From: Rhodanobacter sp.
GTDB lineage: Bacteria > Pseudomonadota > Gammaproteobacteria > Xanthomonadales > Rhodanobacteraceae
Assembly (NCBI GenBank): GCA_024711345.1
Contig: JANJTA010000012.1
Span: forward strand, 1 to 64,000
DNA length: 64,000 nt
Reading direction: 5' to 3'
A program made the position numbers and the translations under genes. Below the pieces are notes generated by a model, which saw only the letters and a list, made by a program, of their open reading frames with translations, was not told the origin of the DNA and ran no database searches. How positions within the stretch are numbered: position 1 is the first letter of the stretch; each line of letters opens with the position of its first letter. Shown piece after piece: positions 5,513 to 13,424 of this stretch.

Positions 5513-6217
5513 ATGGCCAGACTGCCAAGACTTGACCTGCCAGGCATCCCGCAACACGTCGTGCAACGTGGCAACGATCGGCAGGCATGCTTCGCTACCA
5601 ACGTCGATTACGGACAATACCTGCAGGAACTAGGCGAAGCCGCGCTCAAGCATGACTGCGCCGTACATGCCTTCGTACTGATGACCAACCATGTCCACCT
5701 GCTTGTAACGCCATCCGGCACGGGTGCCGTTTCCCGCATGATGCAAGCGGTTGGGCGTCGCTACGTCGGCAGCTTCAACGCACGCTATCGGCGTACCGGC
5801 ACATTGTGGGAGGGCCGATTCAAGGCCGCACTGATCGACTCGGAGCGCTACCTGATGGCTTGTTATCGCTATATCGAGCTCAACCCGGTCCGAGCCGGCA
5901 TGACCACCATGCCCGGGGATTACCCGTGGTCGAGCTACGCCCACAATGCATGGGGAAAACAGCATCCACTGATCACCCCGCACCAGGAATATCTCAATCT
6001 GGGATCCGATCCCGCCGCGCGCCAAACGGCCTATCGCGAACTGATCCGCGAGCACCTGGACGAACCACAGCTCAGCGCCTTGCGCCAACACACCCGGCAA
6101 CAACGTGCCTGGGGCAGCGACCGTTTCCGCCAACAGATCGAAGCACTGACCCAGCGAGCCGTCAGCGTCCGACCGCGCGGCCGGCCACCGAAGCCACCCG
6201 AAACATTGGGAAAATGA
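5513..6217 (+). CDS. REP-associated tyrosine transposase (RAYT, Y1/IS200-like)
   Basis: A 234-residue protein of the Y1_Tnp (HUH) family, RAYT branch. It starts with RLPRLDLPGIPQHVVQRGN, has the HUH motif TNHVHLLV at residues 58-65, and the family signatures GTLWEGRFKA and YIELNPVRAGM. RAYTs are domesticated single-copy transposases linked to the spread of REP palindromes. The C-terminal tail is basic (RPRGRPPKPP). The last 210 coding bases plus about 17 downstream are duplicated immediately downstream (6235-6462). The gene lies at the edge of an AT-richer accessory block; REP-type palindromes elsewhere in the window (11573, 13268, 38295, 62681) could be substrates, but pairing is unproven. 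Confidence 0.88.
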   Translation: MARLPRLDLPGIPQHVVQRGNDRQACFATNVDYGQYLQELGEAALKHDCAVHAFVLMTNHVHLLVTPSGTGAVSRMMQAVGRRYVGSFNARYRRTGTLWEGRFKAALIDSERYLMACYRYIELNPVRAGMTTMPGDYPWSSYAHNAWGKQHPLITPHQEYLNLGSDPAARQTAYRELIREHLDEPQLSALRQHTRQQRAWGSDRFRQQIEALTQRAVSVRPRGRPPKPPETLGK

Positions 6218-6462
6218 ACCTGACCCTTTTTTTGGATCCCGCCGCGCGCCAAACGGCCCATCGCGAGCTGATCCGCGAGCACCTGGACGAACCACAGCTC
6301 ATCGCCTTGCGCCAACACACCCAGCAACAACGTGCCTGGGGCAGCGACCGTTTCCGCCAACAGATCGAAGCACTGACCCAGCGGGCCGTCAGCGTCCGAC
6401 CGCGTGGCCGGCCACCGAAGCCACCCGAAACATTGGAAAAATGAACCTGACCCCTTTTTTGT
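6008..6462 (+). repeat. 227-bp tandem duplication of the RAYT 3' end
   Basis: Bases 6008-6234 and 6235-6462 are near-identical copies with a 227-base offset and a few substitutions. The unit covers the C-terminal coding region of the RAYT gene, its stop codon and the following AACCTGACCCTTTTTT tract. Copy 2 keeps an open frame for the same C terminus but has no transposase core. Confidence 0.9.
6235..6444 (+). pseudogene. duplicated C-terminal fragment of the RAYT transposase
   Basis: This fragment encodes about the last 69 residues of the RAYT again (DPAARQTAHRELIREHLDEP to the RPRGRPPKPPE tail), then a stop. It lacks the HUH domain and has no recognisable start of its own, so it is most simply a remnant of tandem duplication. 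A change of TAT to CAT (Tyr to His) and a few others separate it from the parent copy. Confidence 0.75.
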
Positions 6463-9617: not shown

Positions 9618-12600
9618 TCACATATTCCGCCGATACTCCCCACCCACCTCATACAACGCATGGCTAATCTGCCCCAGCGAGTTGTACTTCACCGCCTCGA
9701 TCAGCTGCTCAAACACATTCCGCCGATCCCGCGCCGTCGTTTGTAGCACCTTCAAGCTGTCGGCAGCCAGCGCATTGCGCGCCTCGCCGTAGCGCCGCAC
9801 GTTCGCAATCTGCTGCCCCTTCTCTTCTTCGGTCGACCGAATCAACTCGATCTCGGTCGCAATCTCCCCGCCATGGTCCTTCGGCAGGAAGGTGTTGACG
9901 CCAATTAGCGGCAACGACCCATCATGCTTTTTGTGCTCGTAATACAGGCTCTCTTCCTGGATCTTGCCGCGCTGGTACATGGTGTCCATCGCGCCGAGCA
10001 CGCCGCCGCGTTCGCTGATCGCCTCGAACTCCTTGTACACGGCCTCTTCCACCAGGTCGGTGAGTTCCTCGACCACGTAGCTGCCCTGCCAGGGGTTCTC
10101 GTTGAAGTTGAGGCCCAGTTCCTTGTTGATGATCATCTGGATCGCCACGGCGCGGCGCACGCTTTCTTCGGTGGGCGTGGTGATCGCTTCGTCGTAGGCG
10201 TTGGTGTGCAGGGAGTTGCAGTTGTCGAACAGCGCGTACAGCGCCTGCAGCGTGGTGCGGATGTCGTTGAACTGGATTTCCTGCGCGTGCAGCGAGCGGC
10301 CGCTGGTCTGGATGTGGTACTTCATCATCTGGCTGCGCGCGCTGGCGCCGTAGCGCTCGCGCATGGCGCGGGCCCAGATGCGGCGGGCGACGCGGCCGAT
10401 CACGGTGTATTCCGGGTCCATGCCGTTGGAGAAGAAGAACGACAGGTTGGGCGCGAAGTCGTCGATCTTCATGCCGCGCGCGAGGTAGTACTCCACGATG
10501 GTGAAGCCGTTGCTCAGGGTGAAGGCGAGCTGGCTGATCGGGTTCGCGCCGGCTTCGGCGATGTGGTAGCCGGAGATGGACACCGAGTAGAAGTTGCGGA
10601 CCTTGTGCTCCACGAAGTACTGCTGGATGTCGCCCATCATGCGCAAGGCGAACTCGGTGGAGAAGATGCAGGTGTTCTGCGCCTGGTCCTCCTTCAGGAT
10701 GTCGGCCTGCACGGTGCCGCGCACCTTGGTCAGCGTGTCGGCCTTGATGCGGGCGTAGGTTTCCGCATCGACCAGCTGGTCGCCGGTCACGCCGAGCAGC
10801 CCCAGGCCCAGGCCGTCGTTGCCTTTGGGCAGCTCGCCGGAATACTGCGGGCGGCCGTTCGGGTACATCGCGGCGATCTTCTTTTCCGCCGCGGCCCAGC
10901 GCGCGGGATCTTCCTTGAGGTGCTTCTCCACATTCTGGTCGATCGCGGTGTTCATGAACATCGCCAGGATCATCGGCGCCGGGCCGTTGATGGTCATCGA
11001 CACCGAGGTGTCGGGCGCGCTCAAGTCGAAGCCGGAGTACAGCTTCTTCATGTCGTCCAGGGTGGCGATGTTGACGCCGGAGTTGCCGATCTTGCCGTAG
11101 ATGTCCGGGCGCGGCGCCGGGTCCTCGCCGTACAGGGTGACCGAGTCGAACGCGGTGGACAGGCGCGTGGCCGCGCCGCCCTGGCTGAGGTAATGGAAGC
11201 GGCGGTTGGTGCGCTCGGGCGTGCCCTCGCCGGCGAACATGCGGGTGGGGTCCTCGCCGCTGCGGCGGTACGGGTACACGCCGCCGGTGTAGGGGTAGTG
11301 GCCGGGCAGGTTTTCCTTGCCGAGGAACAGGAGCTGGCCGCCCCAGCTGTCGGTCTTCGGCGGCGCCACCTTGGGGATCTTCTGGTGGCTCAGTGACTCG
11401 CGGTAGTTCTCCACGCGGATCAGCTTGTCGCGCACCTTGTATTCGTTGACGTCCTTGGTGACGGACTCGCGCAGCGCCGGCCAGTCGCGCAGCAGGTGGA
11501 TGGACTCGTGGCTGAGTTCCTTCAGCGCGGCGTTGTAGCGCTGGCGCAGCAGCAGCAGGGTGCGGTCGGTTTCCCCCCTCTCCCCACGGGAGAGGGGTTG
11601 GGGGTGAGGGTTCGGGGCTTGCATGGAGTTGGCCACTCCGACCGAACCCTCACCCTCGGTCCCTCTCCCGGAGGGAGAGGGAAGCGAAGCGGGGTGCAGG
11701 TCCTCGCCGTGGTACAGCTCCAGCGGCTTCGGCAGCCTGGCGTCGCCCAGTTCCTTCAGCGACTCGTAGTAGTGCTGCGCCTTGCTGGCGGCTTCGGCCT
11801 GGTGCGCGACCGAGGCGTTGATGCCGCGCCCCTGCTCGGCGATCTCGGCCAGGTAGCGCACGCGGGCGCCGGGGATCAGCACGGTGGCGCGCGGCTCCTT
11901 CAGCGTGGTGTCGACCTGCGGCGTCCACTTCTCCGCCGGCAGGTGCAGCTTGTCGCGCAGCAGCCGGCACAGGTTGGCGAACATCCAGGTGACGCCGGGG
12001 TCGTTGAACTGGCTGGCGATGGTCGGATATACCGGCACGTCCTCGTCGGCCACCTTGAACGCGGTGCGGTTGCGCTTCCACTGCTTGCGCACGTCGCGCA
12101 GCGCGTCCTCGGCGCCGCGCTTGTCGAACTTGTTGAGCACGATGAGCTCGGCGAAGTCGATCATGTCGATCTTCTCCAGCTGGCTGGCCGCGCCGTAGTC
12201 GCTGGTCATCACGTAGACCGGGAAGTCGACCAGGTCGACGATCTCCGAATCGCTCTGGCCGATGCCGGCGGTCTCGACGATGACCAGGTCGTACGGCTGG
12301 CTCTTCAGGAAATTGATGCAGTCGTGCAGCACCACGCTGGTGGCGGCGTGCTGGCGGCGCGTGGCCATCGAGCGCATGTAGACGCGCTTGGAGCGCAGCG
12401 AATTCATGCGGATGCGGTCGCCCAGCAGCGCACCGCCGGAACGGCGCCGGGTGGGGTCGACCGCGAGCACGGCGATGCGCATCTGCGGGAACGCGTGCAG
12501 GAAGCGCAGCAGCAGTTCGTCCACCACGCTGGATTTGCCCGCGCCGCCGGTGCCGGTGAGGCCGAGCACGGGCGTGTGCTTGCCGGCCAGCTTCCACTGC

Positions 12601-13193
12601 TTGCGCTGGTGTTCCAGCTCGGCATCGGAGAGCTTGCCCTCCTCGATCGCCGACAGCATGTGGCCGATCGAGATCTCGTCGTCGATGTCGACCCTGGGCA
12701 ACGCGCCGGTTTCGGAGGCGGCGCGTTTGGCGGCGGCGCTGCCGGCGCGCTGCACCACGTCCTCGATCATGTGCACCAGGCCCATGTGCATGCCGTCGTT
12801 CGGGTGGTAGATGCGCTCCACGCCGTAGGCTTCCAGCTCGCGGATCTCCTCCGGCGTGATGGTGCCGCCGCCGCCGCCGAACACGCGCACGTGGCCGGCA
12901 CCGCGCTCGCGCAGCATGTCGACCATGTACTTGAAGTACTCCACGTGGCCGCCCTGGTAGGAACTCAGCGCGATCGCGTCGGCGTCTTCCTGCAGCGCGG
13001 CGCGCACCACGTCTTCGACCGAGCGGTTGTGGCCGAGATGGATCACTTCCGCGCCCTGGGCCTGGATGATCCGCCGCATGATGTTGATCGCCGCGTCGTG
13101 ACCATCGAACAGGCTGGCCGCGGTGACGAAACGCAGCGGGGTGGTTTCCGTCTGCGTGGCGCTGGCGGGGACGTGCTTGGCGGGGGAACTCAT
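9618..13193 (-). CDS. icmF: fused isobutyryl-CoA mutase IcmF
   Basis: A 1191-residue adenosylcobalamin enzyme that interconverts isobutyryl-CoA and n-butyryl-CoA. The order is an N-terminal B12-binding domain ([13 protein letters not shown] at 29-41, with the [10 protein letters not shown] and [13 protein letters not shown] stretches), a MeaB-like G-protein chaperone ([14 protein letters not shown]-loop), then the substrate-binding mutase barrel ([24 protein letters not shown] to the C terminus). The start at 13193 has GGAG six bases upstream. Residues about 502-542, in the linker between the G domain and the mutase domain, are encoded by an inserted REP pair read in frame ([13 protein letters not shown]...[13 protein letters not shown]). 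It is metabolically linked to branched-chain amino acid use. Its stop codon marks the edge of the AT-rich accessory block. Confidence 0.95.
11573..11681. repeat. REP pair (BIME-like) inserted in frame inside icmF
   Basis: Two self-complementary units, CCCCTCTCC-CCACG-GGAGAGGGG (11575-11597) and CCCTCTCCC-GGA-GGGAGAGGG (11661-11681), flank a perfect 14-base inverted repeat (GGGTGAGGGTTCGG 11602-11615 with CCGAACCCTCACCC 11642-11655). This is the layout of an inverted REP pair. It lies wholly inside the icmF reading frame and introduces no stop. Confidence 0.88.
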
Positions 13194-13267
13194 GGCAACT
13201 CCGACATCGGTGCTTGAACTTGTCGATTCTAGTGGATCGACGGCAGGCACGCGGAATGGACGCCGTC

Positions 13268-13421
13268 TCCCTTTGGCGACCGTAGGAAGTCCCCTTGTGG
13301 GTGAGATGGTTGAGATGAGGGTACGGGGCGCGCGGAAATTGAAGGCCGCGCAGGATTCGGTACTTCGCTTCGCACGTACCCTCATCCGCCCTTCGGGCAC
13401 CTTCTCCCGGAGGGAGAAGGG
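13268..13421. repeat. REP pair between icmF and the hydrolase gene
   Basis: It is related to the element inside icmF. CCTTCTCCCGGAGGGAGAAGG (13400-13420) is self-complementary, and GATGAGGGTACG (13314-13325) pairs with CGTACCCTCATC (13375-13386). The left unit (from about 13268, TCCCTTTGGCGACCGTAGGAAG) is degenerate. It fills most of the gap between the hydrolase stop and the icmF start, both on the minus strand. Confidence 0.8.
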
Positions 13422-13424
13422 AAA

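Follow-up and report, generated by a model that had tools for sequence, protein, structure and literature searches.

The icmF gene of this Rhodanobacter genome carried a palindromic element that was inserted in frame into the stretch encoding the G-protein–mutase linker, and relatives of this element lay outside the domains of several other proteins. The explanation we favor, with a probability of roughly 80%, is passive capture, in which mobile palindromes are retained where a linker between domains tolerates them. A non-autonomous repeat of about 110–120 bp, composed of two inverted palindromes and REP/BIME- or MITE-like, would have inserted in frame into icmF, landing in the region that codes for this linker, and the inserted sequence would persist as a tolerated, disordered peptide.

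Position and coding of the element in icmF

The window (the whole stretch of DNA analyzed, 64 kb) was part of contig C8 of a 3.80-Mb genome. The features at the center of this study were as follows.

9618..13193, minus strand: icmF, encoding a fused isobutyryl-CoA mutase/GTPase of 1191 aa (B12-binding, G-protein, linker, mutase)
11570..11690, minus strand: the inserted palindromic element including its ends, GCTTCGCTT...GGAAA, in frame in icmF
11661..11681, 21 nt: the first of the two palindromes in mRNA order, CCCTCTCCC GGA GGGAGAGGG on the plus strand
11576..11596, 21 nt: the second of the two palindromes in mRNA order, CCCTCTCCC CAC GGGAGAGGG on the plus strand

IcmF is a B12-dependent enzyme. 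The identity of the window protein was established by NCBIfam model NF045497, which it matched at the equivalog level (1675.8 bits against a cutoff of 1500), and by the fusion of B12-binding, G-protein, and mutase domains in one protein. The reading frame (9618..13400, minus strand) contained no stop throughout, and the 1191 residues were counted from the ATG at 13193.

Both palindromes had the general form CCCTCTCCC-NNN-GGGAGAGGG, with a loop of 3 nt, and stood in inverted order within 40-nt inverted repeats (11576-11615 and 11642-11681) that were 85% complementary and separated by a 26-nt spacer; the complete inverted pair that the preliminary description had placed inside icmF was thus present. 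Positions 11576-11681 were translated in frame into about 36 residues (505-540). Across residues 480-560 the window IcmF had 81 residues, compared with 42 in the shortest orthologues, a net gain of ca. 39 that agreed with the stop-free translation of about 40 residues described earlier. The element also lay outside the domain envelopes, in the linker that joins the G-protein domain to the mutase domain, as had been proposed. In a structure model of IcmF, residues 505-542 were coil with pLDDT below 50, flanked by helices at 70-88, in a model that was poor overall (mean 50.3), too poor for placing the insert in three dimensions.

Four of the six reading frames of the element were without a stop (two open and one stopped on each strand), and the open frames encoded hydrophilic sequence rich in Pro, Ser, Gly, Arg, and Glu. 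With four stop-free frames and a hydrophilic product, an insertion that keeps the frame would only lengthen a joint that was already variable in length, and the resulting peptide may be nearly neutral. At the RNA level, the 121-nt element folded with -84.2 kcal/mol compared with a shuffle mean of -54.7 (n = 200; z = -6.6), and on paper a strong hairpin is therefore predicted in the icmF mRNA, in line with the hairpins anticipated by the preliminary description. An Rfam search of the hairpin returned sub-gathering matches only, nearly all to microRNA families, which were taken as chance.

Insertion relative to IcmF orthologues

Orthologues were compared at 117 loci, comprising the best 80 of at least 588 confirmed named stretches and 37 genus genomes; these 37 were drawn from 39 matching genus genomes, the match in each of the remaining two being limited to a fragment or to the repeat. 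The loci corresponded to 111 distinct proteins, of which L158, L164, and L167 were truncated where their contigs ended. A long insert at the position of the element, designated site B, was missing from 35 of the 111, and 22 of the 111 had no long insert either there or at a second linker site (site A, described below). R. lindaniclasticus (L076), which groups with the window in a supported clade, had a 21-residue stretch in place of the element.

That orthologues without the segment were conserved on both of its flanks argues for an insertion rather than an old linker, and on the strength of this alignment the element in icmF was an insertion relative to the orthologues. The same comparison had been suggested in the preliminary description, and the segment did not recur at equal length in a distant IcmF: between matched stretches, the solved C. 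metallidurans IcmF had ca. 34 residues where the window IcmF had ca. 91. An ordinary old linker that happened to resemble a REP would be compatible with the variable linker length among IcmF proteins, but this reading was refuted by nucleotide copies elsewhere in the genome, by the empty orthologues, and by the occurrence of different repeats at the same place, and we regard it as hardly conceivable.

A repeat family with in-frame copies in several proteins

The pattern TCTCCCNNNGGGAGA, with at most one mismatch, occurred three times in the window compared with a mean of 0.12 and a largest count of 2 in 100 shuffles, and its exact form occurred at 37 sites in the whole genome, every one of them matched in both orientations; a reversed control pattern had 1. 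BLAST of the element against its own genome gave 53 matches at E≤10, a number inflated by half copies and by copies matched on both strands; the best non-self match had 83% identity over 106 bases. The element's repeat family comprised roughly 30 sites. One diverged copy lay close by.

13305..13423: second, diverged family copy, directly upstream of icmF; the codon test gave no open coding frame here

Seven of 32 examined family sites were in frame, in six proteins; four of the 32 were defined by a 15-nt palindrome alone and are possibly not family members. The in-frame copies were found in IcmF, in an Lpd-like protein (between the lipoyl and FAD domains), in ValRS (between the catalytic and anticodon domains), in HrpB, in Lhr (two copies), and in PolI (between the 5' and 3' exonuclease domains). 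Domain scans covered the frames at 16 of the 32 sites, and none of the seven in-frame copies overlapped a domain envelope. The joint chance of this was 5.5e-05 by a simple calculation that assumes uniform insertion points from the first to the last domain and in which one IcmF mutase envelope (566-763) came from a PDB alignment. A codon test, which requires the sequence left and right of a site to share a single open coding frame, was passed by 6/7 in-frame copies and by 0/25 of the others, a test that favors the six host genes because it was trained on those same genes. The second Lhr copy failed it, and its in-frame call comes from the domains. Excluded from the in-frame count was site C27:23111, identified by the 15-nt palindrome only, which lay upstream of the first domain in a threonine-dehydratase-like frame.

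If selection eliminates copies that interrupt a folded domain, surviving copies would accumulate at joints, and survival at joints would in turn make the two IcmF sites, A (around residue 419) and B (around 499-545), places of recurrent gain, replacement, and loss. Repeat masking or rules that admit such elements as "intergenic only" would miss these in-frame copies.

Two other hosts were followed into related genomes. Among 30 Lpd loci, taken from 44 genus genomes with a match, the lipoyl-FAD linker held the window-family element in 4 and a GEGRGEG-kind segment in ca. 10, the rest being mostly Ala/Pro-rich. Linker palindromicity exceeded the controls in 22/30, yet about ten of these high-scoring linkers were Ala/Pro-rich, with scores up to 12.5, so the score is unspecific in Lpd. 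In the PolI of genomes G008 and G014, the element occupied the same linker between the two exonuclease domains. Four other matches in genus genomes that looked in frame lay in shorter frames, with no domain in the two that were scanned.

Recurrent occupation of two IcmF linker sites

Site A corresponded approximately to residues 416-425 in the alignment and site B to residues 499-545.

11931..11951, minus strand: site A, residues 415-421, at the boundary of the G-protein domain and the linker; empty in the window, with other repeats in relatives

Its counterpart in the solved C. metallidurans IcmF lay at about residue 442, the point at which the model in PMC10481361 is divided into a Cbl/G-protein part and a linker/substrate part.

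Long segments were present at site B in 70/111 distinct IcmF orthologues and at site A in 26/111. Insert palindromicity was above all 12 same-gene controls in 50/70 (B) and 20/26 (A), where chance would give ca. 5.4 and 2.0, and a palindromicity score of at least 15 was reached by 40/70 (B) and 15/26 (A), with three of the B rows also having a control window at or above 15. The inserts were assigned to types by our own peptide patterns, with 20 rows (B) and 25 rows (A) lumped as "other"; the site A insert of L061 was missed by the pattern of its type.

Site B: window element family 13, AGEG-type 14, CGTC-type 11, AERSPQG 6, GTAG 5, ERR 7, other 20, none 35
Site A: none 59, other 25, SPSRGGQGG 7, GTAG-AHPVRD 6, GQSHFS 6, GNGESG 4, GTAG-AAEAAPT 4

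Near-identical IcmF proteins carried different insert types, and on the tree (FastTree, local support only) the type changed at least 56 times at site B and at least 35 times at site A. The ERR segment at site B (7 rows) looked older. Repeat status was verified for the window element family and for the GTAG- and CGTC-tagged inserts, the other types being named by look. The CGTC-type insert had at least 29, at least 7, and at least 18 further matches in three bearing genomes, the GTAG AHPVRD-type at least 8, at least 8, and at least 20, and the GTAG AAEAAPT-type at least 61, at least 47, and at least 51; half sites, matches on either strand, and the copy in icmF are all part of these counts, for which up to 40 candidates were scored per genome. 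The tag visible in the sequence gave these types their names. In each of its two genomes the GQSHFS-type insert matched nothing but itself, on both strands, which counts against the capture reading, as do the high-scoring control windows at site B. As read from the alignment and tree, the two IcmF linker sites gain and lose lineage-specific, mostly palindromic inserts, a recurrence hidden from the preliminary description, which had the window alone.

Several inserts were composite. At site B of L209, L210, and L223, half of a window-family element was followed by an AERSPQG-type segment, and in L049 and L167 a short extra insert (approximately AAGGGGACTCCC..GGTCGCC) lay in one palindrome loop as a nested repeat; this short insert was also found beside element copies elsewhere in the window's own genome. 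Separate partial copies of the C-terminal part of icmF (ca. residues 1056-1191) were observed in G004, G010, G026, and others, located ca. 0.7 to 2.4 kb from icmF in these three genomes.

The concentration of inserts at two places could instead reflect target choice by the elements, for example through TTGCA/CTGCA microhomology or GC-rich DNA, rather than loss of copies elsewhere. Many carriers shared a junction in which TTGCAT was followed directly by CCCTCTCCC, where empty orthologues had CTGCAC or CTGCAG, and other carriers showed the element's own end, GCTTTGCAT. However, the copies in the window, L049, and L088 lay three codons further on, one joint was used by different families, and one family was found in joints of unrelated proteins, which makes target choice unlikely in our view. 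Under passive capture, the clustering would reflect selection against copies at other sites.

Closely related enzymes with a joint that is empty or differently filled constitute a natural series. Future studies could use this series to test directly whether the inserts are neutral filler or a useful linker or hairpin.

An arm subtype nearly confined to icmF

One arm of the element belonged to a subtype with an uneven distribution.

11647..11669, minus strand: arm subtype GGGAGAGGGACCGAGGGTGAGGG, found in the searched genomes almost exclusively in icmF

In the family (233 genomes), GGGAGAGGGACCGAGGGTGAGGG had 22 matches in 20 genomes, 19 in icmF and 3 elsewhere; within the genus (45 genomes), 9/9 matches were in icmF. 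A draw from the order (398 genomes) gave 14 matches, of which 12 were known, one was a new icmF, and one was in frame in a new Lpd linker. Overall, 20/24 distinct exact matches were in icmF and 1 was in Lpd, and carriers spanned seven genera of the family plus one of another family. By this distribution, the copies in icmF do not look as if they had recently come from the repeats resident in the genome. In L224 (genome G051), icmF had the element at site A as well as at site B, the two copies sharing inner sequence, and this double occupancy suggests copying within icmF.

The shared subtype, found in the genus in icmF only, and the many identical left junctions would also fit a single old insertion at site B, ancestral to all family copies and lost or replaced in most lineages. 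Against such an origin, the site B copies had two positions three codons apart, site A copies occurred in G045 and G051, and the tree required 13 changes for 13 carriers, a count in which gains and losses are not separated. We consider a single old insertion possible, if somewhat doubtful.

Where the right arm was the sole selection criterion (11 carriers), the left arm differed by 2.8% (6.6% at 11 third codon positions), while in the same carriers the hairpin loop differed by 36% and flanking four-fold sites by 22-24%. Among 13 carriers selected by the left arm, the right arm differed by 5.4% and the middle by 36%; a left-arm figure of 0.9% is biased, as its carriers had been selected by that arm. 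Local allele exchange was considered as a cause of the conserved arms and rejected: four-fold divergence was 0.243 close to the insert and 0.223 at a distance, and as the near flanks were no more alike than the far ones, such exchange was not indicated.

A subtype present almost only in icmF, together with stems better conserved than neutral sites, makes a constraint on the nucleic acid possible. The very stable hairpin would then slow ribosomes at the domain boundary or stabilize the mRNA, the G-protein/linker part would fold before the mutase part during the pause, and the different repeats at the same joints would be convergent hairpin recruits. The strength of the predicted hairpin fits this proposal, as do stems far better conserved than flanking four-fold sites when loop and middle are not, the spread of the nearly icmF-confined subtype over eight genera and one Lpd linker, and the filling of the same joints by palindromic inserts from different families. 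However, the insert is dispensable, since so many orthologues are empty at site B or at both sites, conserved stems are expected of any mobile family, and the unbiased arm figures come from 11 and 13 sequences. We therefore regard a nucleic-acid function as improbable, and it is equally improbable that a gene-bound repeat lineage settled in the IcmF joints with its stems, but not its loop, under nucleic-acid selection. Were it so, ribosomes might pause, for example, between chaperone and mutase, other hairpin repeats would have been recruited for the same reason, and selfish repeats would supply ready-made linkers and pause sites.

For the arm conservation itself, we favor, with low confidence, young repeated arrivals of one subtype mixed with old retention over a constraint on the stems. 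The icmF-bound subtype and the conserved stems nevertheless count against passive capture; such conservation is not expected of a sequence that drifted neutrally once an old insertion had occurred.

Class of the element and comparison with known systems

The preliminary description had called the element a REP pair. Like classic REPs, it consisted of many-copy short palindromes, often in inverted pairs, and this part of the assignment held. The tags GTAG, CTAC, CGTC, and GACG were absent from 11570-11690, and the window element was not among the five largest repeats per locus around the three Y1_Tnp matches of its own genome (one below cutoff, one in the window). Without a tag, and with the only bracketed transposase carrying GTAG REPs, the element is not a REP in the strict sense, and "REP-like palindromic element" is the safer name. 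Terminal inverted repeats, as expected of a MITE, were present, with ends GCTTT...AAAGC in several icmF copies. That the element was inserted, repeated, and translated bore out its description as a palindrome captured in a protein, while transposition as its source is likely rather than observed: no clear target-site duplication was seen by eye at the junctions, the nearest empty site (L076) having diverged, and no transposase was tied to the element, both of which count against passive capture. An origin from phage or plasmid was tested lightly and set aside, as the exact 23-nt arm had no match in viral contigs and the plasmid search gave three weak records.

The preliminary description had also held REPs to be strictly intergenic, which is incorrect, as in-frame elements are reported in PMC3733652 and PMC10969869. 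In its account of intragenic copies, PMC3733652 (Di Nocera et al. 2013) places GTAG/CGTC REPs, often dimers, inside polA, tRNA synthetase, and helicase genes, raises the possibility that those in a flexible loop or linker are neutral, and mentions that the recB genes of two Xanthomonas have different REPs at approximately one position. The window element resembled those intragenic REPs in being palindromic and within genes, including PolI, tRNA synthetase, and helicase hosts. It differed from the REPs of that account in its missing GTAG/CGTC tag, its IcmF host, the refilling of two joints by several repeats, and an arm subtype bound nearly to one gene. By the description in PMC10969869, Rickettsia palindromic elements (Ogata et al. 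2000, 2002), of ca. 150 bp, are similarly palindromic and in frame in unrelated genes; they belong to a different order, and here inter-domain joints and turnover at one site were shown in addition. Other in-frame MITEs are mentioned in PMC10969869 and PMC5896051. Our literature search, which covered few subscription papers and no supplementary gene lists, found no report of an IcmF hotspot, and with the same coverage of subscription papers nothing on palindromic repeat elements of Rhodanobacter.

The genome shared inverted palindrome pairs and Y1 transposase genes with RAYT/REP systems, but its bracketed Y1 gene carried GTAG REPs and not the window element. This gene (L259, contig C41) was bracketed by GTAG-REP dimers at 1276-1362 and 1915-2001, 87-nt copies that were 93% alike. 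In the window, a REP-associated tyrosine transposase-like gene at 5513-6217 on the plus strand scored 73.5 bits against NF047646 (cutoff 80), and its 3' end was tandemly duplicated (6008-6234 and 6235-6461, 96%).
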